Source: Niebla homalea
Lineage: Eukaryota > Ascomycota > Lecanoromycetes > Lecanorales > Ramalinaceae
Direction of reading: 5' to 3'
DNA: 64,000 nt
Assembly (NCBI GenBank): GCA_019925105.1
Contig: JAHGAU010000006.1
Coordinates: forward strand, 1,612,001-1,676,000
A program made the position numbers and the translations under genes. Positions within the stretch are counted from its first letter, which is position 1; every line of letters begins with the position of its first letter. This document shows, piece after piece, positions 30,091-50,480 of the stretch. Below the pieces are notes generated by a model. That model searched no databases, was not told the DNA's origin, and was given only the letters and a program-made list of their open reading frames with translations.

Positions 30091-33000
30091 AATATTCTAG
30101 TCGGAACTTACGACTCATTCTCCAGACAATTATTCCCGCCATCTCTCTGAATGAGAAAATGAGCTCTGACCTCGGTGATGAGGTTGCTCTTGGTTTGACG
30201 TTGACGAGCTCCAACACTGTCGCTGGAGGCTGCTATAGCTTGTACCAACAGGGGCTTCAGGCACCAATTTCAACATCCCAAGTAGCCCGCTTCTATCGCT
30301 AATTCAGGGCCAAGAAACGACAATCACGATTGATCACATGCTACGAGAAGCATAAATACGCACGGAGAGGTGGGCGCTTGGTGTTGTTGAGCTTCAAGTT
30401 GAAATACCCCAAAGATGTTGAATTGCGCAGGGTCACATCTTCCCTAGTATCATTATGTCCAACTATAATCATGAAACACCCTCAAACTGTTCATTAAAGC
30501 AGTATTTTGTGCTCGTAAGACCTCCCTCTAATGATCTGTTTCCTTTCGCAAACCGCAAAAGCGGGTCTTCCGCATTACCCATCATCATCCCCCTCTACCT
30601 GTTGTCTTTTGCTTCTCCGAGACCGATTCTTCCCTTTCCGGGAAGCAGCTTCATGATGCTTTAAATTGTATTCCCAAACACAGTCCACCCCCCCTTTTCA
30701 TATTGCTTCATGAATCAAGCTACTACTCTATCTGAATACGTCAACACCCTCACTCTCCAACTCCATTTACCACACCCGCCCGCAATGCTTCGTACCAAAA
30801 ACTCCAGTACCCCTGCTGAACCAAGCCGCAAATGTAGATCAAAAATACTGTTCTGGTCACAAGAAACCCCCACCTCCCCCTCTAGCAAAAAGCTCGCCAA
30901 GGGCAGTGAAGTTGTCTTCGACCTCCCCCCCCTCCCCTACCCCCCTCGGCTCGCTCGCTCGCCCTCCCAAACATCCACGCCGTCGCCACCACCGCCACCC
31001 TGTGGCCCGCATTGATTTACCTCCTGGCGCGAGAATCGATTGCAGAGGCCGCCAAATCAGGGATGCGGCGATGGATGGTTGGTGGTGTTGCTGCAGCTGA
31101 TCGAAATTGGTTGCGGGGGTATGTACGTGCAGGCTTTTTTTTGGGGAGGTAGCTGTTCATCAAGGACAATGACGTAGAGGATTTAATGGAAAAAGGGGGG
31201 GAAAGGTCAATGAGTAATGACATGAATGAGGGATTTGTTCTGACGGTATGGGATTCGATGGCGCTGCTGTTGAAGGGGGAAACGAGGCGTTGTGGAAGAT
31301 GGGGAGGGATTACGCTGGTGTTTATGGACGCTGCGTTTGTTGACCGAGGGGGGGAGGGGGGTTATCTTGGGGGATTTGGGGGAGGATTGGTGGGGTGTGA
31401 GAAAGGCGGGGAAGAAGGGGAAGAAGGAGGATCAGAGGACGGAAGCAGAGGATGGGAGCAGAGGAAGGGAGAAGAGGAGGTACACTGGGAAGAAGGGGAA
31501 GGGGAAAGAGAAATTCGATACGGATTTGCCTTTGAGAGGAACGAGCCCGTGAGGCCGAAAAGAAGCACTTCCATAGTAGGCTGAGGGGGCGACCCACATA
31601 AGGCATCTAATGACGGCGTGGGATTCGGATGATTGCTCTTGAGCTGAGAAAGTTTTCAGAGAGCAGAGCAGAGCAATCTATTGACCGATGCTAAGGAGAG
31701 GAGGTAAATGACTTCTCCTTGCACCGATGGAAACGCTGACTAATATACGCTCCTCTTAGCTGGTAATGTCACAGACGCAATTATTTCAAGAGCCGGCATT
31801 CGTTTAATCACTCGGTCCTCGTTGTTGGTCTAGCTCTACAACTGCCCAAATATTATACCAGGCTCTGCACCTACTATATGACCACGTTTCGTCTCTTTGA
31901 ATGAGCAGGTCAATGATAGGTATCCTCCTTGTCACAACCTAAAGATGCAGAGCCACAGTAGCTAACAGTGTCTATATGATGGTACAGATATTGAAGCATT
32001 TGCTCCTTAGCCATTAATTGGACTTTGGAGGCTCTGAATATCAATGGTGTTGTCATGGTGACATGTTCCTGCTGTGAGGTAATCGAGTGATCCCATGAGC
32101 CAAAAACTTGCGAAATATTCATCCTTTTCGCAATGACTTTATTCAAGGCCTTAGGGGTTGAATACAATTCATGAGGAAACTTAGTTTGAGATCTGTACAG
32201 CTCGCCGAAAGGTAGTTCGGGAGTTGAACGGGATGTGGTCGATGCGTAAGGCCGCCTCCGGAAAAATGGGATTAGACACATTGTCCGGGGTTTGATGCAA
32301 GTCACTCAGTTGCAGAATCAGCCAGGCCTCAAGAGCCTTCTACGGAGTCACGTAGGGCCCAGACACAATATGACCGCATGATTGGTAGTTAGGGCAGCAC
32401 AGGGGTGTCTGGGGGTTCCGAAGAGCTTTGCCAGAATAAAACGTACACAGGGATCTCCTACTGCCACTTTTAATTGAAAAGCTTAGTGAGTAAGCGCAGA
32501 TCGACATGTCGATCTTTGCAAATTATTCAGACCATAATGCCCTGTCCTTCTTGTTGTTCCTCTTCGCGCATGAGCCTCTCAATGGTGCCCAAGTCTTACA
32601 AACAATCATGAAATCCTCCACCTTTTCGAACAGGACCAAACAAAAAATGCCATCAACTGCAGAAAGTATCGTTCGTTGCTGTTGTTAGATGAAAAGCATG
32701 GTTTGATCGTCCCTGGTGGTCCAAGAGGATCGCTTCGCAAGGGGGCTTGGCGCCATTCCGGGGGGACGGCTGCATGCCGAGAAAGGCTATTTGGACGACG
32801 CCTGCTTGCGACATCATCTCATCTATCTTTGTGTAAGTAGGTGACGAAAGAGCGTTGTCTCAGTTTAATATGGATGAAAATATGGGGATAATAGATATAT
32901 GCCCTTCCAATTATTGCTGTTCAACTCTCGATGACGACAGTGATGCAGTCAGCGAGGCTACTCTGTACCAAAGGTGTGCTTTGAGCTTCGTGTTTGAATG

Positions 33001-33564: not shown

Positions 33565-33830
33565 AAAAAAGAAATATAAAACAAGCCGCTCGGCGGGATC
33601 GAACGATGGCTCCCTCAATTTCCATGGCTCACTGGATGAGACACCAAAAAAGAACTTCACCCCCGAACGAGGTTCCAAATTAGGGGACGTGTCCAAGGCA
33701 GAGCCTAAGATCCGGCACCCTAGCATTCACCTGTTGTCCCGGAGGAGAGCTGGGCCACTCGGCAGGGTTGCGCTGGAAGATTAAGATTAGCCAACAAGAA
33801 TACCACTTGACCACGGGCTAATAACTTACA
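33565..33830 (-). ncRNA. tRNA-like Pol III-type unit, copy 1
   Basis: On the minus strand there is an A-box-like TGGTCAAGTGG (33803-33813), a B-box-like CGTTCGATCCC (33595-33605) and a T6 run (33565-33570). ATATATAT lies upstream at 33865-33872. Sense TAAGTTATTAGCCCG precedes the A-box. The boxes are ~200 bp apart, far more than in a tRNA, and no acceptor stem or cloverleaf forms, so it is not a normal tRNA. An internal T6 (TTTTTTGGTGT) lies between the boxes, shared with copy 3; transcription could end there with the B-box downstream, as in yeast SNR6. It is divergent from paralog A, ~450 bp from its ATG. That it is an RNA gene is inference. Confidence 0.4.
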
Positions 33831-34045
33831 CCCCTGCGTGACGGGATCAACTTTTTATTATCAAATATATATCACAGACCGCAAGCTCTGTTCAAAAAAC
33901 ATTTGACTATGCAATGCACCACCACGCCAGCCCTTGTCACCTCCTTTATCATTGCAGAATAGCCAGAGCTGTAGATCGCATGTGGGCAGACTCGAATTTT
34001 GGAGTGCTCAGCCTCTCAACCCTCGACAGCAGGCTGGCCAAAAAA

Positions 34046-34060
34046 GGGTTAGCACCACTT
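34046..34060 (+). promoter_or_regulatory. TTAGCACCACTT motif upstream of paralog A
   Basis: The sequence AAAAAGGGTTAGCACCACTT ends at 34060, about 230 bp before the ATG of paralog A. It is nearly identical to the block 255-265 bp upstream of paralog C, and its TAGCACCACT core recurs upstream of paralog D on the minus strand. Confidence 0.5.
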
Positions 34061-34287: not shown

Positions 34288-35606
34288 ATGCCTCGAGCCT
34301 CGAAGAAAGCCCACAAGCAGGGTTACAAAGCGGCATTGAAAGCCCAAGGCCATCAAATCCGCAAGAAGATGCGCAGGGAAGCGAAGAAAATGCTAGGTCC
34401 TAACCATCCAGAAGCAAAAGGTAAACAAACCCCGCCACTGATTTCTGCGCTGTCGGCGTACACCCTCATGTTTCACTTTGTATTTTCCTGAGTCTCAAAA
34501 TTGCCCCTATGCTTACGCTCCGCCCAGACATCCCGCTCCAAAAGAGTAAGGAGTATAAACAAGCTGCCCTCATCCGCCGATACGGCCCAGGATCCGATCA
34601 ACACTTTTACAAGGAGCGCAAGCAGGATCGGCGGTGGATAAAAGCATTAATCGAGCGGCGTGATCGAGACCGACCGAAGGATCCCAACGACAGGGACACG
34701 TTCTTTCGCCAGACCAGAGCCAGGCCTCATCAGGAAGTTGAGGATCCTTTACTTGAGAATGCTGAGGCATTAGAGAAGACTTCGGGGGCCGTCGCAGCTT
34801 TGTTCAAGAGACTGGCTCGCGAGAGAGCGGAGGCAATAAAGGAGCGTCCACCTCATAATGGGGTTGACCTTGTGGAGGACTGGTGGGGAAAGGGGCCATT
34901 CATGTGGGGGCCGTTCAAAGAACCGGTGGGAGAGTACACAAAGAAGGAACTGGCGGCGATCCATCAAAGATTCCAACCTTATGAGAGCAACGAAGAAGGG
35001 GAGATGGAAGAAGACGAGGAAGTAGACATGGAACTTGAGACCGAGGGGGAAGATGAAGAGGAATGGATCAAGCAAGTTGAGCGCGACGACGAAGGCGATA
35101 TGGAAGGGGAAGTGGCAGAGGACGTGGAAGTAGACATGGAACTTGAGACCGAGGTGGACGATGAAGAGGAACGGGTCATGCAAGCCGAGAGCAACGACGA
35201 AAGGGTCGTAGCTATTTACAGCGACGAGGAGGGGGTCATATACATTGACAGCGACGTGGAAGACGTCATAGAAAGTGAGAGCGACGAGCAAGGGGAGATG
35301 GAAATAGACGAAGGAGGAGATATCGAAGATTGGACCGATGGGGAAGATGACGATGAAAGGGTCACCGAAGAAGAGGACGAAGAAAGTATGGAGGTTGAGA
35401 GCGAGGAGGAAGGTGAGGAGGGAGGTGTGAGCATTGGGGGGGAGGAGGAAGGCCACCGAGATGAAGAAGGGGTACGGAGGCGACAAAACTCCTGGCCACA
35501 GGTTGCGGGTCTCCTAGATAGCGGAGAATTGGTCTTCCAGTCGATCGAGAGCGCGGGAGAAAATAGGGCGGCTGGATCGAAGGACGAACCTATCTTCATC
35601 TCTTAA
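34288..35606 (+). CDS. DWWG-family paralog A, basic N-terminus and acidic C-terminus
   Basis: The predicted 403-aa protein belongs to a four-member local family I do not recognise. Exon 1 (34288-34420) encodes a basic 44-residue start (MPRASKKAHKQGYKAALKAQ); a 107-nt phase-1 intron follows; exon 2 is 34528-35606. Family motifs are RKQDRRW near residue 75 and VEDWWGKGP near 160, separated by LFKRLARERAEA. From ~185 on the protein is extremely acidic (Glu/Asp), with a 36-residue internal duplication (VDMELETE twice; DNA repeat 35019-35045 and 35127-35153). No signal peptide or membrane segment. The bipolar charge suggests a nuclear or nucleic-acid/histone-associated role, but that is speculation. 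Upstream and head-to-head is tRNA-like copy 1. Confidence 0.7.
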
Positions 35607-37557
35607 AGATCTGTTACCATATTCAAAGATCCCGCGTGCCAATATGCTTCGTGGAGGTATGGAAAGATTCTTTCACCAACTTAATGAAGTCATCTAGATG
35701 GGGTTAGAATCCTCAAGGGCTCTATAAATCTCTCCGTTCTATTACTGCCACGCTCTCAGCGCCTTTGATACCATCACCTTTGCCGTGAGTTGATGGTATC
35801 GGTACTCCACATCGTTATGAATGTGCCCTGCGGAAGCCTTCAAACCACTCAGAGCTCATCGAAGCAAAGACCCATTTGTTATGACGCGGAGCAAAGCCTC
35901 CAATTGAGGACCTCGATACCCAAGCCACCTGTAGAAGCTCACTGCATCTGAGATACCTGTGAAAGCCGTCTACAGATGTATACACTGCTGCTACGTGAGC
36001 TGGTCATTTTCTAAGAAGCATGTATATTGAAGTTATGCACAAAGCGGTGGCAGGGATTTGGGAGTCATATACAATGCATCACCTGGTGCTTTGAAAACAA
36101 TCATTCAGGTGAGGCTTTTGGTCAGTATCGTGATCATAAGTGCATTCAAATTCCTTCACGGCATTCAAGACAGCAGGACTATACTCCGAAAGCCTTTGAA
36201 GATCCACCGGCCCTTCTGATTCAATCAATCAGAGATCTTCCAACACTTGTTAGATTAGAGTATTCTCGTGATGATGACCAGAATTCTTTCGAGACTCATA
36301 TAAGCACATACGTCTGCGCCATTAAATTGAAGCCAAGCACTTCATCGAGGGCTTGTATGGTCGTGCCCCCCTGTGGAAGCCTTCTACAGATGGTTACACC
36401 TTCGCTACCGGGACCTGCCACTATCAGATGAGCCGTGCAATTCGAAGTACCCACAAAGCAAGGCCACCAAATCATAAGTCGTCTGCAATGGACAGCTCTC
36501 ACTCAGTCATGCCCATTCTCTAAGTTCAATACAGTGATCCTCGTACTCTGTGCTTCGCCTTAGACAAAAATTAACGTGACGCTTCAAAAGTACCTTCTAG
36601 GACTATCGGGCATGTATTTTGTGACTCAAATCGCTAGCCGTTCAGTATGTTCATTAGATAAGATCAGCAGATACTATGCTACAGCCCTCCAGGGTCTTGA
36701 ACGATGATTGGCAAGGCGTCAGAAGTACTTTTCAAGCACGCCGTTATATGCTCACTAATGGTCTCTCATGCAATCAGATCGTATCAGAGAAGTCTAAGGA
36801 CGAGGATATATCAAAAAGACTCTTAACAACCTCCAGATATACGTTTGTAATGCACTAATCCGTGCTTCTTCAAGAGGTAAATTTCGTGTTGTGCCATCGC
36901 CTAGCTACTGGGCTTTTCCTGATACATCAGTCAATAGTGCGTTTCTGTCTGAATTACCCTCATCCATCCTCATTGTTTAACGACACGTTGAGCGCCAGCG
37001 AGGTCTCTTCCCGCAGATCGGTCCGGAAGAGGGTCTCTGCACATTACTGTTAGTCTGCACGTTGCACGAGAAGACTGATGGATGGGGATAAGATCGGTGA
37101 GTGCGACTTGTTAGGCTGGTATGAGGATGACGGGGCCATGATGAGTAGTCATGAGGGATTGAGCCGGATTCCCAGCGATACGGCTGTCCAATCAATCACT
37201 AGGGATCCATTCTATGGATGTCAAGATGCTGTTTAATCAGTGATGAGGCGTGGCGAGAACAAAAGATGAGTTGTATAAGAAATCCAAAGGACCAGTCCAT
37301 GCAGGATTAGACCTCCTAGATGAGAACTTTCCACTTTATTGTATATTTCCAGTCTTCGATGTACTATTGGACAGCTCAGTGACTTGTGCATGAGATAGAG
37401 ACTTTAGTAAAGCGATCAAATTGAACTTCTGTGGAATGGTGGTTGCACGCGAGAGACTCGAGAACGAAGAAAGCTGAAAGAGAGGCATAAAGCTTTAATC
37501 ACCACGTATCCCTGCTGTTCCACGCTTCAAACTTCAATTCATGTGTTCGCCTCCCAG
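35607..37557. other. gene-poor intergenic region
   Basis: About 1.95 kb between paralogs A (+) and B (-), which converge. There are weakly similar blocks around 35950-36040 and 36370-36440 (both with GAAGCC-TCTACAGATG), probably decayed repeats. No supported gene. Confidence 0.4.
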
Positions 37558-38239
37558 CTACTTCATCCTCAGAGGCAGATTGCCCCAAACCTCCCCAACC
37601 GCTTCACCATCATCAATAGCAATACCCTGTCCCTCCTCCTCTCCGTCTTCTTCATACTCTTCTTCCCCAAGTAGGCCACTCTTTTCCCCGCCAGGTTCAT
37701 CTCCTGCCACGGAGTGGCCCGGGCCCTCCATCTCCGGCCCCTTTCCCCACCAATCATCAATGTCTACATCCAGGTTCTTCTCTCCCTTCATCTGCAGAGC
37801 CTCCGCCCTCTCTCTGAATGCCCTTGCAAACAGGTTCTTGACCACCGGGCTTGCCCCGTTCCCATTCAACTCTTGCAGCAACTCTTCATCCGACCTCAGC
37901 TTTGTAAGCTTCATAAACGCCTTTCGGTCATGGGACGAATTGGGACGCCCCGGGTCATAGCGCAGGATCAGGGCATGGCACCAGCGGCGGAGCTGTTTGC
38001 GGCGTCTGAAAATACGGTGTTGCGCTTCTGCAGCGCCGGGTATGTAGGATGGGTCTGGGGAGGGTCTGTCAGCATTTGATCTTCATAAATGGGCCAGCTC
38101 AAACGAGCGGGTAAACCATACCGGCAGCCATTCTCTCAGCAGCTATGCGGTCCCTCCTGCGTTTTTTCCGGCGCTGGTTGTGGCCGACGGCTCTGGCAGC
38201 GAGGATTTCCTGGTGGCGTTTGCTGGGCTTGCGGGACAT
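37558..38239 (-). CDS. DWWG-family paralog B (short member)
   Basis: The 204-aa protein has exon 1 at 38122-38239 (MSRKPSKRHQEILAARAV.., very basic, 39 codons), a 67-nt phase-1 intron (38055-38121; GTATGG..CCAG), and exon 2 at 37558-38054. The family core is clear: RKQLRRW near residue 58, LRSDEELLQELNGNG, VVKNLFARAFRERAEALQMKG and IDDWWGKGP near 137. The acidic region after the core is short (GEEEYEEDGEEEGQG), so this member lacks most of the tail seen in A, C and D. I found no tRNA-like unit at the equivalent upstream position, and the shared upstream motif is degenerate (about 38475-38495). It may be the most decayed module, although the coding frame is intact. Confidence 0.65.
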
Positions 38240-39265
38240 CGTGATGCAGCTTAAAGATTTATGTCAAGGCTGAAAACAAACTTCGAGGTAGTAAGAAGTT
38301 TTACAAGAGGTTGAGAGGTGTAGATGGCTAAATTGTGCCAGCTCAAAGGCGAGAAAGGATCTTTGATGGCTGCGAATGATTCACTAGCCAGTGTGACTTG
38401 CCGAGCGGATCATTTGAGATAAAAGGATGTGTTCTGGCTCTCAGAAATTTTTGTGTCATGGCTCACGGCTACGAATGATACTAAGCCCTTCCTGGCCGGG
38501 TTCATCATTGTTGAGGTAAATTCACAATGTATGATGAATTAAGGTTGCAATGACTCCTCAGAATAGATAGCGTAGATCTTAATTAGACGAGCCTTGGAAA
38601 AGCGTCAGGTTGAGTCATAGATAGCAAGACAAGGACGCGTGAGGTCTTACTGTTCCCAGCGACAAAGCATACTTCATCCCGTACACCACTTCAAGAGAGC
38701 TAAGATTAAGACTTACTGACCGGTAAAGCACATGACTACTTATCCAAAAGTCAAAAGCCAAAAGTCTTATATCAAGACCCAAAATTATGATAGGGCATTC
38801 GCAGATAGCTTCTCAATTTTTCACTTCTTCGTGGCTTGTGTACCCTACCGTAAATCTCACCAATGGTCCAAGAGCCTTGCTTTGAGATCTAATTGTTGCG
38901 AAAAGGCATAGCTGCTAGAGAAGATGTGTCGTAGCTCCCCCCTTCTCTCCACGAGGGCTTTCACAATCTCAACCTTTATCATCTGCACCGGTCTCCACGC
39001 CTGGCCCCCCGGATTTCCGGTTGCTGGCCGAAATGCCAACACCTCCTCTCCAACCTCTATGCGTTTCCACCTGCTCGGACTCATGCCGTCTCTACCTTCC
39101 CTCCCGCCGCCGTCATCGTTGCCGCGATGAGCCCTATTGCGATCCGGCAGGCTCAGTCACTTCTGGCAGGAAAGAAAGAAGGACGACGCTGTTGTCTCGT
39201 CTCCACATCTCCGCGATGCTGTGATTACGTGATTAGGGTCTCCCCCGATTTAGCGCGTCAAGTGA
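38240..39265. other. intergenic upstream of paralog B
   Basis: About 1 kb. The minus-strand segment near 38475-38495 reads GGGCTTAGTATCATTCGTAG and aligns loosely with the TAGCACCACT motif of the other paralogs, followed by the shared GTAGCCGTG/ATAGCCGTG. No A-box/B-box pair was found. Confidence 0.35.
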
Positions 39266-40432
39266 CTAGTTGAGGAACCCTTCAACATCCGGGAATACTG
39301 CGAGATTGATGACGCCACGCCGACCATCCTCCGGCAGCATGGCTGGGCGATGGTTGTGCTCGCGACTATAGACACAGGTCAGCTTGGCCCTTATGACCCT
39401 TTGCCGGATGTCCCCTTCCTCCTCGCCCTCTTCTTGCGTGGACAGGGCCCTCTTGTCACGTCGCATTGCTATATCCAGTGGTGGCAGGCTGATCGGTCGC
39501 CCCGAGGAGTTGGCTGCGAGGTTTAGGCTGGCGTATCTGATCTGCCGTAGATGGCAGGGAAGGTTTTTTGAGGAGTGCATCAACGTCGGTAACCCCAATA
39601 TTATCGCAGGAGATTATGTTGTTCGCCGCAGAGGCCGTCCAGAGCTGGCCGCGCTTCGGGCTCGAGGCATACGACGGCTCAAGGGGCACAGCTTCCGCCA
39701 CAGGTTGGAGAAGTCGCCGTGGGGAGGTTTGAATGTGGCCAGCAGCCTTACGACTGCATTTGCATCCACTCATGGCTCTCGTATTCCCCTTCTGCATGTG
39801 CCTACGTTGGGTCGACATAAAAGGTGGGTGTATGGAATGGTGAAGGTCTCACCTGCTTGTGCCTCGCTTGCCCAAGTTCCTTGAACCGGGGAGCGACAAC
39901 TTCCTTGAAGCGGATCGATGCTTTGAACGCATCTTCCGCCAGCCCCAGCGAGGTCCATGTCTACGCGTTACTGGCGTATTCATGGGCAGCACAAACCCCT
40001 TCGGCAATCTGGGTGGAGATGCCTTTAAGGATTTGGAAGAATGTTGAGATGCCTTGGGCATGAGTCTCGGGCGCGAAGGTGTCCAGGACCTTTGCCACAA
40101 TCGCGAGATTGCGTGCAAACAAGAGGTTGCTCTCAACAGGTTCAACTCCAAGGCCACTCCGCCCATGCTCGCCCCCTTCCTCCTTTCTCACACACGGTGA
40201 GTAGATCAAAATTGGTCATGACGGATTCCTGCTTCCCCGCGAGACATACAAAAGTCGACGTTGATCCTGATGGAACATTTTTCCCCGACCGATATCTGAC
40301 TCCTTTCTCGCGTCTGGGTGCGGACGAAATAGTGGTCATCAGCATGAAATCGTCAGATTGAGATTGACTCAGAGTACACTCACCAATATCAAATGGAGAT
40401 ACGTTCAAGATCGACCCGCGGAAACGCAGCAA
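39266..40432 (-). pseudogene. possible decayed protein-coding gene
   Basis: Several minus-strand segments read like fragments of one protein broken by stops: LNVSPFDIGE near 40400, YRSGKNVPSGSTSTFVCLAG near 40280, then FARNLAIVAKVLDTFAPETH to EYASNA, a stop at 39961-39963, and in the same frame LGLAEDAFKASIRFKEVVAPRFKELG down to ~39855. Beyond that only out-of-frame pieces continue. I cannot name a family. It could also be a multi-exon gene I have failed to model, or chance open frame. Confidence 0.25.
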
Positions 40433-40832
40433 GGCACAGGAGCAAAGGAAAGAATCGGGCGCAGGTGGAGGAAAAGCACGAGAGCATCGAGAGAGATGAA
40501 AGGGAAGAGAAGGCGGAAAGGAAGGCAGCAGTTGAACTGTATAGTATTTATCAGCCTGGTAGGCGGTGTAAAACGGTCGGAAGTATTTGAAAGATGTTCC
40601 ATCAAAAGACTTGGCTTTTGCGGGCTTTGGGTAGTAAGTCCACCACCACTCCTCAAAGGGCGGCCACTAGTCTACTGTCAAACAAGGTTGTCGCAGGCTG
40701 ATGCACCATCTGAAATTGCAAGTTGTTCTCAGAACGGAGCGCATAGCTTGCTGATGGTCCGCGTTGTATGTATGCGAGGCCGAATCAGGCATGCCGGTCG
40801 CCTTGGGAGAGGCTTGGCACCGTTAAGGAATG

Positions 40833-40865
40833 GGCTGCATGCCGAGAAAGGCTATTTGGACGACG
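40833..40865 (+). repeat. 33-bp dispersed perfect repeat, copy 2
   Basis: The second copy of the block at 32768-32800, 8 kb away and on the same strand. In one frame both read LHAEKGYLDD, which may be a trace of a common coding ancestor. Confidence 0.8.
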
Positions 40866-41810
40866 TCTGCTTCAATACCATCCTTGCTTTCTTGATACTC
40901 GTGAACACCGGGAATCTCCATCGCTGTATCTGTTGTACAACCGTATCAACATAGCGTCGATGTCTGCATGCGTCGGGGTCTTTCCTGTCAATGACAGAAC
41001 GAAGCGGTGGCAATTTGAACTTGGTACGAAAATCAAGATGCGGCGTGAGCGGCAGCTCAAAACTCCTTCAAGTCCTTCCCGTAATCTTTGCGACGATATT
41101 TCCATTTTAAATCTGGCATAGGCTTGTTGGCTTTAGTTGTTCGTGATAGCTGCATGTGGATGGTGATGACTGACCAACATCGGAGACTTGCACCGGGGAT
41201 AATGCCAAGGCATGTCGCAGCATCCGCTTTTGCGAGCGAGCTGTATGATTCTGAGCCATTGGGCCTGATTGGTACTGATGATGACGCCGATGGAGGCTCG
41301 ACTGTGCTCATGAACCTCTTTAAACATGACAATGAGATGGGAGAACGGCCTCCTGGAGAATCTTATACCTTATACGTGACATACGAAACCTTTTGCCGGA
41401 TCGCGTTGGAACTCACGCTCATGATTACTCCGAAACATACTTTAAATCCTCGGAGGGCGGTGCAGAGCGTCTATTCCATCCCAGAGATTTAAGACCGTCG
41501 CTTTGGACTCCCAATTCGTACATCGTGAGCCTCGATGACGACGCTGTTGATTTTCAGCGGGGACTAAGTATTGCGTTTGAGATTCATAGAGGCGCAGAGA
41601 GAAAAGTGTTGGAGAGTCCCGTTCACTCAAAAAGGTCGATGTGTCACTGGAGCCCCGCAGGTGAGAAAAGTGCCCCCATTCAACGTTTCTCTGCCAGAAA
41701 GTAGTTCCTCAATATTGAAGAGGAGTCAGAGGGGAGATGACAGACATCATTGACCTGCATGATGGAAATTAGCCGGCAATACGAGATTCTGATTTCGCAA
41801 AAAATCTGTG

Positions 41811-42095
41811 AAAAAATGTGGCACTTGTGAGAATCGAACCAACGACATCCGAGCCCTACGGGACATACAGTCGACGGTAACATTGACGCTCGTGAGGCAA
41901 GAGACCAAAGAGCTCAAGATGCAAAAGGGTAGTACCTACGGGGCCAAGAGTAGGGCGTAGAAGAGTTGCTCTGCGAACAGAAACGCTGTGAGGCACATCT
42001 CGGTCAGCACAAATACTCATGACCCAGCCGGAAGAGGTACTACCCACACGAGTTAGCGAACACTTTACCACTTGACCACGGGGTGACTTAACTTT
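41811..42095 (-). ncRNA. tRNA-like Pol III-type unit, copy 2
   Basis: On the minus strand there is an A-box-like TGGTCAAGTGG (42068-42078, identical to copy 1), a B-box GGTTCGATTCT (41830-41840) and a T6 run (41811-41816), with ATATATAT upstream at 42131-42138. Sense AAAGTTAAGTCACCCCG precedes the A-box. The internal part contains an 11-bp perfect inverted repeat, AGGTACTACCC at 42035-42045 against 41928-41938, so the RNA could form a long stem-loop. The 3' block GATGTCGTTGGTTCGATTCT is close to copy 3. The unit is divergent from paralog C (~650 bp from its ATG). It lacks a tRNA acceptor stem; an RNA gene is inferred, not shown. Confidence 0.42.
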
Positions 42096-42474
42096 AAATT
42101 TTCTCAAGTTGGAAACACGTGGTTATCATGATATATATCTCTCAATATCCTGGCATCTTCGTACTACTCACAAGCGAGCAAGGCAATGATGTAAGCACCT
42201 TCACTGCATCATAGAGCATGATTAAATTTCGTCCAGGCACACTCGGTGTATCTCGAGAGAGGGCGCAGTTCATCATAGTATCAACTCAATGTTCAAAATC
42301 CATGCTAGCACTGTCAAGGCAGTGGAGAGAAGCTCGAAATTTATGCAAGCCTTTCCAGCGCGTGATATCGTGAAATGCGAGCGACATGCATAGTGTATTG
42401 CAAGGGCTGTCTTGGGTTGCTATGGCTACCAGGACGTGACAAAAGTGAGTATATTTTAATACAAAGTCCTAAAA

Positions 42475-42490
42475 GGGATTAGCACCACTT
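42475..42490 (+). promoter_or_regulatory. TTAGCACCACTT motif upstream of paralog C
   Basis: AAAAGGGATTAGCACCACTT ends at 42490, 255 bp before the ATG of paralog C, and differs from the copy upstream of paralog A by one inserted A. Such a match between otherwise dissimilar upstream regions suggests a functional site or recent common ancestry. Confidence 0.5.
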
Positions 42491-42744
42491 CCAGCCTGGT
42501 CATTTGTTGCACGGGAGACAGCAAATTTTCTCCACTTTCGTTATTTTGAAGTACGTCCCGTATCCTACTACAGTCATCAATTGCGTAGGCACCATTTGTA
42601 CGATCTTGTATACGCTCTTTAGAATCGCCTCTGGCCCTGTGCTAGCAAGTCATCGTTTCCGACACTGTCAGTTCCTTCTGCCTGTGCTGTTGAGCTTCCG
42701 AACGCAACTGCATCTTTGCGATCAGCCGTAATTCGATCAAAATA

Positions 42745-44091
42745 ATGGCTAGAATCCGCAAAAATCACCACAAGCCGCAGTCAAGCATCCTTCCAATGGG
42801 TCATGGCCATCGCTCCGGTCAAAAATCGCTCAAAGAGTCTGAAAAGTTTGTTGGAGGTAATGATATGCATTTGACCTTCGCATCATTCCCATCGCGGCTT
42901 GTTAAGCTCTTCGCACATTCCGTTCTAAATCAAAACTGACGGTGCCACGATTTTACCCTAGAAACCCGACCCTGCATGACAGATCTTCACGAAGTCTCTA
43001 TCTCGACCCACAATAACGCTTCTCTTTCCAATAGGCGACGAAGAGCAGAACGTCAGCAGGACAGACGCTGGTTTTACGATATAATGAAACGAAAGGATTT
43101 CATGAAGCCTACAAATGTGCGACAACAGAGGCATTTTGTCAAGTTATCGCAGCTCGGATCCGATCAGGAACTATTGGTTGAGTTGGACTCTGATCGAGTG
43201 TCAAAGGAAGTCAAGAATTTATACGGCCGGGTTCGTTTCGAGAGGGGCCGAGCTATTGAGCTTCACGGAATGCCAAGCCCAGGAAAGACTATCGACGATT
43301 GGTGGGGCGATGGACCGTATGTGATGCCACCTAGGCCAGCGGTGACTATAGAGGAGGAGGAGCAAGAAGACGGCGAAGAGATGGAGGAAGACAAAGAAGA
43401 AGGCGGAGATGAAGAGGATGGGTTAGATTATGACGAAGAAGAGGACGAAGAGCATGATTACGCCAGAGAAGGGCAAGATGAGGCAGGAGAATGCAGCGAA
43501 GGAACCGAGGACACGGAAGAAACTCAGCTAGACCATGACGAGCTTCGCAGACTTGCTTATGGAGAAGATTGGGCGTCCCAAACCCCTGTCCTACAGAACC
43601 TTGATTTGATGACCGGTTTCGAATCAAAGGAGGTCGGTTCGCCCCTGCCAGGCTACGAGTACCTGGATTACAAGGATCCGGCGCCACCATGTCCCAGAAT
43701 AGAGGGAATAGTGTGCGAGTCGGATTCCGATGAAGTGGGCAATGAGAGAGAAGGAGAGGAAGAAGCATGGGCTGAGGAAGAAGCATGGGCTGAGGAAGAA
43801 GCATGGGCTGAGGAAGAAGCATGGGCTGAGGAAGAAGCATGGGCTGAGGAAGAAGCATGGGCTGAGGAAGAAGCATGGGCTGAGGAAGAAGCATGGGCTC
43901 AGGAAGAAGCATGGGCTCAGGAAGAAGCATGGGCTCAGGAAGAAGCATGGGATGATGCACAGATGCTGGAAGATGCAGCCCTAGAGGAAGTGCAAGCCGA
44001 GCCAAAGGTGACAGAGGTAAACGGGGATCCAAAGACGCCTGAGGCACAGAAGTCGCCGCAGTGTTCTTCGTGGTGGGAGAATCCCTTTTGA
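42745..44091 (+). CDS. DWWG-family paralog C with AWAEEE tandem repeat
   Basis: The 413-aa protein has exon 1 at 42745-42856 (MARIRKNHHKPQSSILPMGH.., basic), a 105-nt phase-1 intron and exon 2 at 42962-44091. The core motifs are RQQDRRW near residue 67, LGSDQELLVELDSD, VKNLYGRVRFERGRAIELHG and TIDDWWGDGP near 148. An acidic region follows, then DWASQTPVLQNLDLMTGF and GSPLPGYEYLD, which match a segment in paralog D. Ten consecutive six-residue units (seven AWAEEE, three AWAQEE) follow at ~255-320, from an 18-bp DNA repeat. The C-terminus returns to ordinary composition (CSSWWENPF). Function unknown; no signal peptide. It is head-to-head with tRNA-like copy 2. Confidence 0.7.
43762..43950 (+). 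repeat. 18-bp coding minisatellite (10 units)
   Basis: Near-identical tandem units GAAGCATGGGCTGAGGAA inside paralog C. The first seven carry GAG and the last three CAG at one codon (Glu to Gln), so the variant has spread as a block. Such arrays often vary in copy number between strains. Confidence 0.9.
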
Positions 44092-46255
44092 ACTTTATCA
44101 ATATTGGGCATTGATTTTCAATGCTGTCATTATACATTATAAGAACGCAGATTATCTATGAGCCAAGCTCAAGTATAGCTCTAATAAGTCCAACAAGCAC
44201 TGAAACCCCAGGGACCATACTGACACACAAAGTACTTTTCGGATGATTCAGTCCTGAATCTTGGAGACCTCGATAGGGTACTGATGCCCTCCTACTGTGG
44301 ATCATCAGCGGCAATACTACCTCGTGACATAGTCCTTGTCCATACAGATAGACTACCGACCATTTCCATCCAGCATGTTCAAATAGTTCCGATAAGCCCA
44401 GAGACACTAAAGCTCTAGATACGCTGTCGAAAGTATCCAGTGGGTTCGTCGAGTGACTCAGTCCCCACAGATCATGATCTCATAAAGATTCTGATGCTCC
44501 TTTTGCAAGAAGTTTTGTCTCTACAATCAAAAGAAAACGTTCCGAATTCGAGTTAGTTTTCATGTCCTACACAGCCAAGTCGTGTTTGGTTCCGATTGAT
44601 TTGCTATGGGTACTATAGACCTAGTCGCAACGGAGAATTATTCAATGTCGCCTACATTAGCAGCTTCCATCCTATTCATTTGACAGCAGCCTCTTCACAA
44701 AGTACGTAAGCCTTTACAATCTTACGGCACGGTATCACATGCCTAGACGATGGAGAACACGAAATACGCCTACCAAGATCATAGGACATACCGTCTCAGT
44801 ATGGGTTGGTGGAGTTGGAAAGTACTTTTGGTTGTGCTAGGGAAGCCTTCCTCCAATATCGTCTCAGACTTAATAGAACTGACCATCTCTCGAGATATCA
44901 GGAGATGACTAGCCAGACTGTGCATGTCTAATACATAGCCACCACTGGAATTGTTGCGAGGACTACAGACAGGCAATGTACCTGCATGACTTGGTTTCAA
45001 GAGATACAATTCGTTGGGTAGTGATGAAGATACCTGAGCATAAGTGATCTATTGGAGAATCCTCCATGCCATTACCTCAGCTACTGGTCCATCGGTCCTT
45101 ATGCCCCTCCCCGCCCCCCTCTCCCTCCCTCTGGGGGATGCTGAAATACCAGTGTACGAAGTTCAGTCGTGATAGTGCTCTAGTAGCCAACGTATTCACA
45201 CAGTCTTCCAGGATGACGATCCCGATAGGGTTTGATGGCAGGACTGTTAACAGGGGGGCTAAAGGTGTCTCGATCGACCATTTCATGTGTGGGCCGTACA
45301 ATGGGAAAATGTAGATCCCTTGTAGCTGCCAGCATACGTAGATCGCATTGTCCGATGGAGGAAGCGTTCACTGATCACTATTGAAGCATCATGAGCGATG
45401 GATCACCTGTCAAAAGCCCTCGACGCGATCGACCGCAAAAGCCCCTTTTCAAGGATCTTTACTGGGATCCTTACGACGACTAGGCTATCAATTTGGTATT
45501 TTGAGCTGCATCAGGTGCCTCTCCAGTCCAGGGTGCAACAGCGAGATCATCTCTACTTTAGCAGTCGCTGCCAAGCTCCTGAAGACAGCTTGTTCCTAGC
45601 GATACCTCAGTCGATTGATGATCGGCTACTTGAACGGCCCCAATTCTGGTTGAGTCCCATGGCTATACCGGAATTTCAGGTCTCAAGAGCAAATTGCTGT
45701 TAAAAATAGAGCACGTTGAGTTACAGCTGAGTACGCTGGGGTGATCCACGCAAGTGGCTTTGTTTTTCGAGGTCCGCATTAAAATTCCTCGAGTACGCTA
45801 AGAGCCTGGTTTTCATGTATTACTCCTAAGAGATAATACTTTATGCGCCAAGATGTTTTTGGGAGGCCAAGCCGGTTGCCAGCAAGCTCTTAGATCCTGG
45901 GCTAGAATTTATCATATGGTCAAGAGCTTTGTGCTTCAAGGATACCGAATCGATCATAAAACGGGTCTGAGCGTTCCTCATGGTAGTGCAGACCTCGGTA
46001 TATATACTCCACAGCTGAGTCAATGATTACATTGCATACACAACCATAGTTCTGAGTCTAGCGGGGTCCAAAGGGCAACCTGGAGCGCTTCCACATTCCT
46101 TGTTTATTGACTGAATCGGGTCTGGGATACACTAATACAATATACAACTGTGATGCTGGTGGTGGATTTCGGTGCTGCATGACACTCGTGTGGATACTGG
46201 AGACGAACTCTGCAACACTGTCAAACACAAGAACGACTTGGGAAGGCACGCCAGG
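44092..46255. other. gene-poor intergenic region with diverged tandem repeat
   Basis: About 2.2 kb without a supported gene. Segments starting near 44169 and 44379 align as diverged copies (TCAAGTATAGCTCTAATAAG against TCAAATAGTTCCGATAAG; later GATTCAGTCC against GACTCAGTCC, and CTGATGCCCTCC against CTGATGCTCC), an offset of roughly 210-215 bp. An ORF at 45398-45703 has no recognisable motif. Confidence 0.4.
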
Positions 46256-47068
46256 ATGTCGACCACGGAGTATGTGGGAATCTCGAAGCTGATGGGACTT
46301 TCAAATTACGCATCTTGGCGTGTGGACGCTGAAGCATCCCCCATCTTGGCTGGCATTTGGGACGTTGTTAAGACAAATACGATTTCAGCAGTCACGACCA
46401 TTGAACCGAATCCATTGGAGGAGTCATTAGCCCAAGCAGATGAACTTCCTAGACTTAATAAAGAGGTTCAGGACAGGTACGACAAAGCATGGGCTATCCT
46501 CATTCTCACGATCGACCATCCTGTTCGTCAGCATATCCGTTCAATCCACAATCCTTACCTTATTTGGAAGAAGCTGGAGCAGCTTTACGGATCTGGGTGC
46601 ATGATAGAGCGAGAGACCAGGCCGTTTGTGATCTGTCTTGACTAAACTCATCCAAATTTGCCAGCTTGCATGAGTATGCTCATGAGGTCAAATGATATCA
46701 AGAATAATCTTGTCGATATAGGAGCACCCGTACCAGATTGGATAGTTGTCATGTTCTTCAAATTGGGTCTTGACAGGATGTATGGCCCATATGTATCAGC
46801 ATTGGACCAAGCGCCAAAGGCCAAGGGAGCCGAGATGGATGTCGATCAGCTCACTGTTGCTCTTGTTCAGCACGGTTGTCGCATGAGAACCCAAGATGAG
46901 GCCGTAAATCGAGGCAGGCTCGAGTCGAGAACCACAAGAAACAGGATAAGCGGAAGGGAGGCAAATAGAATGGGAATACAAGATAGAACCGATGAAAAAG
47001 ATATCTGCACAATCAGAACAAACACTTGTGAGTTCGACATCTTGGTTCTTGTAGATATCAAGCAATAA
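46256..47068 (+). mobile_element. Ty1/copia-type retrotransposon gag relic
   Basis: The frame from ATG 46256 reads MSTTEYVGISKLMGLSNYASWRV-like sequence, then KAWAILILTIDHPVRQHI and NPYLIWKKLEQLYGS, the gag/UBN2 pattern of Ty1/copia elements. A stop at 46643-46645 interrupts it, after which the same frame continues with LVDIGAPVPDWIVVMFFKLGL and DVDQLTVALVQH to 47068. The expected CCHC knuckle, protease, integrase and reverse transcriptase are not seen downstream, and no LTRs are evident, so this is a dead internal fragment. Confidence 0.75.
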
Positions 47069-48225
47069 TGTGGATCAGGCCTTGGTTTCGATGGGCTCTG
47101 GCCCCTGCTGCCATAGCCTTGAGTGATCTTCTCTTACCCGTTTTGGTTTCTGGTGCGAAGAGCCTAGACTAGATGTTTGCGGATCAAGGGGGAGACTTCA
47201 GTAACTCATCGTGACCGCAAAGAACATAAAAAATTATTACACAATAGCGATTGTAGCGGGTTACATCATACCACTCTTTCAAATTTTGAATCGGTAGCCT
47301 CCGTGCTCTCTCATCTCACACCCCTTTGGACCTTTAACACCATCAATTGCAAAAAACATCGATACGGAGACGTTGACGGGATAATCAAGACCGAGCGATC
47401 CATTCATCATTACCTACAGGATACACCGACGTAGCGACCACCTCCGTATCAAGTCCTGCGGCGGCACTGACCAACAACGTATCCACTTTTTCAACGGTAC
47501 GAAAGGTTCTCCCCTGGCCCGATCTGGAGGCCTGCCCCTCCTTGCGCTCTTTCGTCCTAGGCGCCTTCAATGGTATGCAGATCGGCATGAACCGGCTGGG
47601 CAGGAGACCAGGGTTTTGTAGTCTATCTGGTGGGGCCTGGTCCTTAACAAAGCACACCGCGATAGCTTACGAACATGTATTAGGAAGACACGTCGAGGCT
47701 TCGAATGATTTAAAGATGTGGATTAGCATGTTCATCTTATTCAGCTCCGGCTGTAGATCAACGGCTTAAATGTGTAGGTCGAATTCAGAAGATGGCAGAG
47801 TAACATCAGCCAGTTAAGACGTGACCGGGAAGTACTTTTGATGACAAATGATGGAACAAGGCTCGGGTGCAGTAGTTATTTATCTCATATCCAATATTTA
47901 GTCGATGGGTACTGGTATTTATCACATTGCCGAAGACTGAAGGATGCAGTCAGGCGTTTCGTGCCCTTCTATGGTCGTTGATTTAGTGTATCTTGGGTCG
48001 AGATTAGAATTTGGTATTATTGATGTACTTCATCCACAAGTGGACATGGAGTGAGGTGGTTTAACGGCGTAATTTAGAGGTGTTGGAAGCAATCCCTAGT
48101 AGGATTGTCGTGCTCAGGATCCATAGAAAGAAAAACCTTTGCAGGCTGAGCTCCAGCAACTTCTGAGAGAATGCAGTGCATGCATTGAGCTCGAGCATGA
48201 GTAGAACAGACCTTCGGCCCCTTGA
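47069..48225. other. intergenic, probable decayed retroelement sequence
   Basis: About 1.15 kb. Short frames at 47385-47660 (-) and 47177-47434 (+) give no clear copia protease or integrase motif. I see no LTR. Nothing else supported. Confidence 0.35.
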
Positions 48226-49439
48226 TCAGAAGTCATAGCTGATGATCTGATCTTCCGGCGTCCTGGGCTCTTCGTTCAACTGCCCAGTCGCCAAGTCTCT
48301 CAGACCTCTCTCCTTCGGCTTCATTGACCTCCATCCCCTGGATTGCTCTCCCGCTACCTCAGGGTCCTCTTCCTCTACCGTTGTCTCAGCTTTTTCCTTG
48401 ACCCTTGCCTCCCCCTCCTCCGCCGTGCCTGCAGCCCTGTTGCCGTCGTCCCAATCCATTATCTTGGCATTCAGTTCCTCCTCTCTTGCCAGCACGTCAT
48501 CTTCAAACCCCCGTGTCATCTCTTCCGCGTCCCCCTCTCCTGACGCACGATCGTCTTCGTCGCCCGGTTCCTCAGCTCCTACGTCGTCCAAGCCCGGCAG
48601 CGGCAGCGACGCACCAAATTGCATCGTCGGAATTGTTGCTACCTCCTGGCCATGGATCAATGCAGTGTGGTTCGCCCAATCAGGCCCCTTGACTACCTCA
48701 TCCTCTGGAGGTTCGTAATATGCCTCATAGGCCATATCGAGACCCCCTTCCTCTGGTAGGTCGCCTCCCAAGATCCATGCCTTCTCTCTGCTCCACCATT
48801 GCTTTGCAACATCTGTGTCGCGAAGGCCCTGCATCTTGAGGGCCTCCTTTCTTTCGAAGAGCAGTATGATGTATAGCCGCTTTGCATGCCGTAGGACTTC
48901 ATCTTCGTTGAGGGCTTCGTGTATTTCCTCAATGGTTGATGACTTGGAGATGCGCGTGAAAGCCTGCCTTTCACGTTCGGTAGGCAACAGCTCACCACCC
49001 CGCACGATCCGGTCTTCGAGCCAGCGTCGATCCTGACGCCGATTTGTTGTCCAGTCTTGTTTGATTTGTTGTTCGGACTTGTGCTTGGCGCCAGCAACAG
49101 CGTAGAGATTCGACATCTTGAGAGGGTAGTCTGAGAGAAACGTGATCAGACCATGATTGTAAGTGTTGAAGGCTGCACGTATGTTGTGAAGCAGATGGAC
49201 AGTGTTCGTAAGACACCACAAAAATGGTTGAGGCTGTTGCGCAAGATACAGAGAAAAAACCACATACCTCCCACGACCTTCTTGCTGGCATTCCGGACTC
49301 TTTGACGTCGCCGATACTGGTGCTTTTTGACCCTTGTAAAAAGGCTCTTTTGAGCGGTAGCTTTACGGCTGCGATGAGGCTTGTTGTTAAGAATCGCGGT
49401 CACGGCTTTGCGCCAGGCTCGAGAATCAACCCGTGTCAT
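48226..49439 (-). CDS. DWWG-family paralog D (divergent member)
   Basis: The 358-aa protein has exon 1 at 49268-49439 (MTRVDSRAWRKAVTAIL.., with a strongly basic end, YRRRQRVRNASKKVV), a 137-nt phase-1 intron and exon 2 at 48226-49130. RRQDRRW near residue 87 is intact, followed by SSTIEEIHEALNEDEV and FERKEALKMQG. The DWWG motif is altered to AKQWWSREK near 168, at the same ~81-residue spacing as in B and C. DWANHTALIHGQEVATI and ASLPLPGLDD match paralog C. The acidic C-terminal half ends in RTPEDQIISYDF. It faces tRNA-like copy 3 head-to-head (~780 bp). Function unknown. Confidence 0.68.
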
Positions 49440-49707: not shown

Positions 49708-49722
49708 GAGTGGTGCTAGCCG
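49708..49722 (-). promoter_or_regulatory. CTAGCACCACT motif upstream of paralog D
   Basis: On the minus strand GCGGCTAGCACCACTCATAG lies about 270-280 bp upstream of the ATG of paralog D. It carries the same TAGCACCACT core as paralogs A and C. The adjoining ATAGCCGTG is echoed upstream of paralog B. Confidence 0.45.
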
Positions 49723-50218
49723 CATCTGGCATTGACACATACGCAACAGTCTGCCCTGCAATTACCCTGGCAACGACACAATGGAGTCTGCCTTGATGAG
49801 CCTTATCCGTACTCGGAACTTCGAGGAGTCTTCTAATGTCTTTCAATGTATCAATCAAGACTCTGCCACCAAGAGAAGTGTTTCAAAATCGTTGTTGGGA
49901 GGTAGATATGTGCTTCGAGCACGACGTAGTTCAATCCAGGCGTTAACTTGGGCCGCTTGTCAGAGCCTCAGAGCTATTTGGGGATATCAGACTGAAATGA
50001 AAGGTTGTTGTGTTGTATGATTCACCTTGGCGGTTTGAAACACCCAGATGTACTCTCCACCAACGCATAGGTGCTTTAGCTGTTCCACGCATCACTATCA
50101 ATGATAGGCCTCAAGCCTTTATGCATGGTCATGCAGGAACAAAAGTTTATAGACTGGTTATGGCTAGGATGAGTGCGCCCTAATTTAGGCTCCCGCGATA
50201 AGGTATATATTTCAAAAT

Positions 50219-50480
50219 AAAGTTCGGGAGATCATGGCGGAGTGGTTAAGTACCATGGCTATGCTTCCACTCCGTAACAAGTTGCTCTGAGGGCTTCCAG
50301 AGTATGTGTACATGACAGGCGCGTGTAGTCATCGCTCGGGAGGGGCCCCTCCTGGGGTCGGTCCTGTACATTTGACTTTGAGTTCCGAGGGGACGCTTAA
50401 TTTTTTGGTGTTTTCTGGCTTTCCCATGTCACTGTCGCCGGATGTCGCTGGTTCGACCCTCACAAGAGTTCTTTTTTTTT
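50219..50480 (+). ncRNA. tRNA-like Pol III-type unit, copy 3
   Basis: TATATAT at 50204-50210, sense AAAGTTCGGGAGATCA, then A-box TGGCGGAGTGG (50235-50245), B-box GGTTCGACCCT (50450-50460) and a T9 run (50472-50480). A 14-bp palindrome GGAGGGGCCCCTCC lies at about 50340-50353 between the boxes and would form a strong hairpin. An internal T6 followed by GGTGT is shared with copy 1; GATGTCGCTGGTTCGA and CTCACAAG are shared with copy 2. The unit is divergent from paralog D. It lacks cloverleaf pairing; calling it an RNA gene is inference. Confidence 0.42.

Follow-up and report, generated by a model that had tools for sequence, protein, structure and literature searches.

Several noncoding RNA genes of fungi, for example those of the RNase P RNA leader and of SRP RNA, carry an A box, a B box and a T-run, and the Pol III-type units described below are like them in promoter layout and rough size class but unlike them in having no Rfam match above chance and no significant fold. 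A second point of comparison is provided by the tRNA genes of yeast, which serve as chromatin boundaries and need their A and B boxes to do so (PMC7990762). With these genes our units share an A box, a B box and an AT-rich upstream Pol III element beside protein genes; they differ in that they are not recognised as tRNAs, have boxes 208-238 nt apart, are partly related to one another and were seen in this cluster only, and any boundary activity on their part would be hypothetical.

The locus lies in a window of 64 kb (the whole stretch of DNA that was analysed) from an assembly of 50.6 Mb in 52 contigs, and two aspects of it stand out. The first is a protein family without a recognised domain, known from this genome, Ramalina farinacea and a few further sources. 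The second is a repeated layout in which a protein gene stands back-to-back with a tRNA-like Pol III unit that tools do not call a tRNA, an arrangement that has persisted although much of the DNA around it diverged. Should TFIIIC bind the units, or should they be transcribed, the locus would offer a small natural experiment on the influence of Pol III elements over adjacent genes, or else a new kind of RNA-protein pair.

A family of four genes without a recognised domain

Genes A-D are open, as ORF and splice models, at the coordinates of Table 1 and follow one common architecture: in 4/4 of these predicted models a basic exon 1 is followed by a phase-1 intron and a D or E codon that opens exon 2. 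All four introns are GT-AG and 67-137 nt long, the last base of exon 1 being G and the first base of exon 2 being A throughout. A CTNAC branch-like site lies 12 (A), 14 (B), 22 (C) or 29 nt (D) from the 3' splice site, and the intron of gene D has a second site, CTTAC, at 78 nt. The 3' splice sites are to be taken as predictions, since at least one alternative acceptor per gene keeps the frame open. The codon bias is no more than weakly coding-like (z 1.4-2.2).

Table 1. Coordinates of genes, Pol III-type units and noncoding elements in the window
Feature	Position	Strand	Details
Pol III-type unit divergent to A	33578..33877	-	TATATA; A box TGGTCAAGTGG from 33813 downward; B box CGTTCGATCCC from 33605 downward; T-run
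Pol III-type unit divergent to C	41811..42144	-	TATATA; A box TGGTCAAGTGG from 42078 downward; B box GGTTCGATTCT from 41840 downward; T-run
Pol III-type unit divergent to D	50200..50480	+	TATATA; A box TGGCGGAGTGG (50235); B box GGTTCGACCCT (50450); T-run
Gene A exon 1	34288..34420	+	44 codons plus 1 nt; net charge +12
Gene A intron (predicted)	34421..34527	+	phase 1; GTAAAC..CCGCCCAG; CTTAC branch-like site
Gene A exon 2	34528..35606	+	helical core with KERKQDRRW and DWWGKGP; acidic tail, end DEPIFIS
Gene B exon 1	38122..38239	-	net charge +11
Gene B intron (predicted)	38055..38121	-	phase 1; 67 nt
Gene B exon 2	37558..38054	-	core with RRKQLRRW and DWWGKGP; short acidic tail
Gene C exon 1	42745..42856	+	net charge +6
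Gene C intron (predicted)	42857..42961	+	phase 1; two acceptors further downstream also frame-preserving
Gene C exon 2	42962..44091	+	core with RQQDRRW and DWWGDGP; acidic tail with DWA/LPG block and 18-bp tandem repeat
Gene D exon 1	49268..49439	-	net charge +18; partly present in degraded copy on contig C41
Gene D intron (predicted)	49131..49267	-	phase 1; acceptor 42 nt upstream also frame-preserving
Gene D exon 2	48226..49130	-	core with RRQDRRW and QWWSR; DWA/LPLPG block; C-terminal EPRTPEDQIISYDF
Upstream element of A	34038..34060	+	contains TTAGCACCACTT; begins 250 nt before ATG
Upstream element of C	42468..42490	+	contains TTAGCACCACTT; begins 277 nt before ATG
CTAGCACCACTC upstream of D	49708..49719	-	10-mer TAGCACCACT exact
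Conserved noncoding block, A side	32744..32829	+	includes 40 nt with 98% identity to C side
Conserved noncoding block, C side	40811..40893	+	counterpart of A-side block

With the predicted introns spliced out, the six pairwise core alignments score 127-205 (z 15.7-31.7) at 27-38% identity, and in each pair none of 1000 shuffles reaches the score. Searches of the genome with gene C core as a query recover B (7.4e-17), D (8.9e-9) and A (4.5e-7); with A, B or C as a query all three other members are found, and with D as a query C and B are found and A is missed. All four window genes carry the core signature QxRRW, ERxxA and WW, and the residues E, R, A, W and W are invariant across 15 aligned family sequences; fragment P0012, outside that alignment, has RW in place of WW. 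Genes C and D additionally share a second block (DWA..T, LPLPG), whose score of 64 is above the best of 2000 shuffles (55; 0/2000 as high). Their C-terminal match PKTPEAQ/PRTPEDQ is equalled by 1/2000 shuffles, as is the match score of their whole tails.

Profile searches of the family proteins against Pfam and NCBIfam returned nothing over cut-off, and a PDB sequence search gave no match. Membership in DUF5694 (PF18950) is not supported: only gene D matched, at 15.6 bits against a gathering cut-off of 27.5, and the sub-threshold matches were confined to one of seven members in one set and one of 15 in another (E 0.03-0.04). A literature search for OHK93_006021, the R. farinacea relative treated below, or for QDRRW found no paper. 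We conclude that A-D form a real, hitherto unnamed protein family, here called the DWWG family, without a recognised domain and with intron position and phase in common.

The predicted structures are helical in their core. In the D-type model, pLDDT per ten residues is 77-90 over exon 2 residues 21-90, with helices at 7-43, 51-61, 66-74 and 80-99, and past residue 110 it is mostly about 50 or lower; the A-type model is concordant (helices 3-18, 23-43, 52-63, 73-82 and 86-105; mean 72). Fold searches with these models found no convincing relative, and a link to RbcX-like or other known helical folds would be conjectural. The tails are acidic, with net charges of -77 (A), -11 (B), -83 (C) and -33 (D). 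Domain searches recognised no nucleic-acid-binding domain in the family proteins, and from the combination of basic exon 1, helical core and acidic tail we predict that they are nuclear proteins which may contact RNA or chromatin.

Much of this had been anticipated by the first-pass annotation, which proposed four two-exon genes with a phase-1 intron and no known family, a second block in C and D and acidic C-termini in A, C and D, all to be checked by core alignment and by profile and structure searches. The four-gene family is borne out by 6/6 core pairs, the intron arrangement recurs in every predicted model, and the shared motifs, the C/D block among them, proved significant. The tail charges agree with its description of the three C-termini, and neither the sequence nor the fold searches brought up a convincing match to a known family.

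Pol III-type units head-to-head with three of the genes

The window was scanned for an A box TGGYNNAGTGG followed 30-400 nt on by a B box (C/G)GTTCGANNC and by TTTT within 60 nt, using a general box consensus and after the units had been spotted by eye. Exactly three units were found in the 64 kb, all divergent (head-to-head) to A, C and D, with a B-box class that had been broadened to let in the A unit; GGTTCGA alone returns two, those of C and D, and an earlier scan with a different A-box pattern had returned the A and C units only. The A boxes lie 475 (A), 667 (C) and 796 nt (D) from the start codons and are preceded by TATATA at 58, 59 or 31 nt; 3/3 units thus combine an upstream TATA-like element with both boxes and a T-run. 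Complete units were absent from 200 dinucleotide shuffles of the window and from four other loci of the same genome (37.5 kb in total, two of them overlapping by 0.5 kb).

The units are partly interrelated. Those of C and D are alike at the 3' end over 54 columns and those of A and C at the 5' end over 43 columns, 0/500 shuffles reaching the score in either case, and the best matches of both pairs lie at the ends and not in the body. End identity amounts to 17/17 nt for A/C and 21/24 nt for C/D, and each end occurs exactly twice in 50.6 Mb (A/C, 17 nt with up to one mismatch; C/D, a 24-nt pattern with three free positions and up to two mismatches). The likeness of the A and D units is not significant, its score being reached by 19/500 shuffles, and the 2.4 kb upstream of gene B contain no such unit; both observations speak against the role in cis that is discussed below.

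Given their tRNA-like A and B boxes, the units might be tRNA genes with long introns that lie near the family by chance, and some matches of the tRNA model in the genome are of a length that leaves room for introns (up to 126 nt). We regard this as very improbable. At its standard threshold, ARAGORN does not call the units tRNAs even with introns of up to 1000 nt allowed, and when much relaxed it returns 113 candidates over the window, about noise level, none of which equals a unit as drawn. Among the at least 53 matches listed for the genome-wide tRNA model (63/2585 candidates scored) none falls in the window, and by inspection the expected acceptor-stem pairing is absent in all three units, that of A having 4 bp, one position off. 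Across the 50.6 Mb the same model places at least 49 loci over cut-off, with 15 on a single contig, and compared with these tRNA loci three tRNA-like promoters within 17 kb look like a marked excess.

The units could also be one half of a two-component ribonucleoprotein, in which each would yield an RNA of roughly 250-280 nt bound by the adjoining basic protein, both partners diverging together. Several features point in this direction: the divergent pairing in three of the four genes, the terminator-like T-run besides the B box, conservation that extends past the boxes over the 43 and 54 columns given above, and the basic exon 1. A consensus fold of the three units has 37 pairs, 19 of them with both sides changed in at least one of the three sequences, which favours an RNA role if anything, although it is given little weight because the three units hardly align. 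Against such a module stand the absence of a unit at gene B, the lack of an Rfam match above chance for the whole stretch or for the D and C units separately, and the finding that no unit folds better than its own shuffles (z +0.92, -0.98 and -0.89; 100 shuffles each). On balance we think an RNA-protein module unlikely.

Upstream elements and the duplication of A and C

Between unit and start codon, genes A and C have TTAGCACCACTT in common, whose 15-nt context occurs only twice in the genome. The 10-mer TAGCACCACT is found at similar distances upstream of three genes, at -238 (A), -265 (C) and -279 (D), and gene B has a 15/23 match to the longer element at -256. The argument for this element is carried by position and not by count, since the 12-mer alone, with two mismatches allowed, gives four matches in the window against 3.94 expected by chance.

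Offset by about 8.07-8.46 kb, A and C form an old collinear duplicate pair that has retained an 86-nt noncoding block; the first 31 nt of its 40-nt portion are found in the genome only at this pair (up to three mismatches). Little of the DNA flanking A and C is still alignable. When the upstream sequences of A (811 nt) and C (966 nt) are used for DNA searches of the genome, they return only themselves, with no repeated flanks.

Such a history raises the possibility that A-D are a plain orphan family of intracellular proteins with an unrelated role and that the units were carried along in old segmental duplications, since duplication accounts for a common position without function and has preserved the noncoding block as well. 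We consider this possible but doubtful. The unit ends are near-identical, whereas the proteins have fallen to the core identities given above and the flanking DNA mostly no longer aligns, which suggests constraint on the units; local gene conversion may be an alternative cause.

Degraded copies and relatives elsewhere

Within the 50.6 Mb, own-genome searches place intact family members in this cluster only. Degraded copies lie outside it: pieces of the C type on contig C7, of the D type on C41 and of the A type at two sites on C3, 7.3 kb apart. The D-type copy has exon 1 sequence and then exon 2, an order that supports assigning exon 1 to the gene. We also asked whether the copies lack the intron, as retrocopies of a spliced transcript would, and obtained no support for this: for the A-type copy on C3 the exon 1 score of 20 is reached by 242/300 shuffles and the spliced form scores 124 against 120 unspliced, and for the D-type copy both forms score 118, although its exon 1 part scores 78 (0/300 shuffles).

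Degraded copies on three other contigs and fast divergence are what one would expect if the genes were remnants of a mobile element or conflict system. In addition, five ORFs outside genes A-D between 35.6 and 48.2 kb were scanned against Pfam, a check of part of the stretch that the first-pass annotation called gene-poor. One of them matched at E <= 0.01; this fragment of copia gag, at 46154-46645 inside the cluster, stays under the curated cut-off. The confinement of intact members to this cluster, the single-copy upstream DNA of A and C and the lack of a Pfam domain in any member argue against such an origin, which we judge improbable. The first-pass annotation had recognised the family at this locus and missed the head-to-head units, the TAGCACCACT element and these degraded copies.

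Protein searches matched 3 of 2610, 6 of 7994 and 8 of 7996 scored candidates, in overlapping sets and with scoring in the latter two covering the candidates that share most words, and yielded at least 12 distinct relatives among the candidates scored. By reading the sequences we assigned seven to the D type (P0001-P0005, P0010 and P0012), four to the A type (P0006, P0007, P0009 and P0011), one to the B type (P0008) and none to the C type. P0007, the one relative with a named source, is OHK93_006021 of the lichen-forming ascomycete Ramalina farinacea (Lecanorales); this uncharacterised A-type protein, with no Pfam domain listed, has 52% identity to the exon-2 core of gene A and carries QDRRW, ERAEAI, DWWGKGP and a C-terminal PIFI. 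On the strength of this relative, the genome studied here is probably that of a lichen fungus as well. Gene D aligns with P0001 over 342 columns at 48% identity and with P0003 over 241 columns at 54%.

A tree of 14 rows, built from the cores of genes A-D and from the 10 relatives that remain when fragments P0002 and P0012 are excluded, groups sequences by type, with bootstrap/SH-aLRT values of 100/99 for the D type, 93/94 for the A type and 80/88 for the B type, the D branch alone passing the strict support mark of the tool. Branches are long for gene C, P0011 and P0008, and gene C is set nearer D (81/86), contrary to the noncoding kinship of A and C. Source contigs are of equal size for P0005 (D-type) and P0008 (B-type; 5468), for P0006 (A-type) and P0010 (D-type; 16102), and for P0003 (D-type) and P0011 (A-type; 9141), from which we infer that the cluster is present in other sources too. 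As A-, B- and D-type relatives cluster by type and occur in pairs, the duplications likely predate this species. This refines the lineage-specific expansion suggested in the first-pass annotation.

C-terminal peptides are retained by type. PIFI(S/F) is found in gene A, P0006, P0007 and P0009 and is absent from P0011, which ends early; KTPE/RTPE is found in D, P0001, P0003, P0004, P0005 and P0010 and is absent from fragments P0002 and P0012, and gene C has PKTPEAQ.

A possible role in cis and the genomic setting

The explanation that we tentatively judge most likely is that the genes encode unnamed proteins, predicted to be nuclear and to bind RNA or chromatin, and that a divergent Pol III-type unit acts in cis to keep the upstream region open. 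We prefer it because promoter elements are kept, the units match best at their ends, and folding does not go beyond that of shuffles; the fold results and end-located matches fit a role as promoter elements rather than as RNA, and the boundary function of yeast tRNA genes offers a precedent. TFIIIC and Pol III would occupy the three units, each of which would hold open the region shared with its gene and might in this way shield or co-regulate that gene within a repeat-bearing stretch. On the protein side, the basic exon-1 peptide and the helical core would touch nucleic acid, and the acidic tail, which the structure models predict mostly with low confidence, might tune binding and display the type-specific C-terminal peptide.

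A more far-reaching version, a two-component system specific to lichen fungi in which each basic-helical-acidic protein stands head-to-head with its own Pol III RNA and the two are duplicated and diverge jointly, strikes us as unlikely. The genes around the cluster look fungal and include a GH5 cellulase, a Zn2Cys6 regulator and a MOT1-like SNF2/HEAT/DUF3535 protein.

Additional sequence features

Between the regions upstream of genes A and C, described as collinear old duplicates, the paired noncoding blocks are 78% identical over 86 columns, with 40 nt therein at 98%, and the first 31 nt of this high-identity stretch match the genome, at three or fewer mismatches, only at this pair. The tandem repeat of gene C encodes repeated EEAWAE/EEAWAQ. 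The gag fragment, positioned between genes C and D, scores 23.8 bits, under the Pfam cut-off of 27. Among the degraded family copies elsewhere in the assembly, the one resembling gene C occurs twice in succession. With the genome-wide tRNA model, 63 of 2585 candidates were scored, so the loci above cut-off number at least 49; contig C49, possibly mitochondrial, carries 15 of these.

Positions of the additional features
Feature	Position	Remark
Noncoding block pair	32744-32829 and 40811-40893	A side and C side
18-bp tandem repeat	43756-43953	Inside gene C
Copia-type gag fragment	46154-46645	Retrotran_gag_2 match
Degraded A-, D-, C-type copies	L024-L027	Contigs C3, C41, C7
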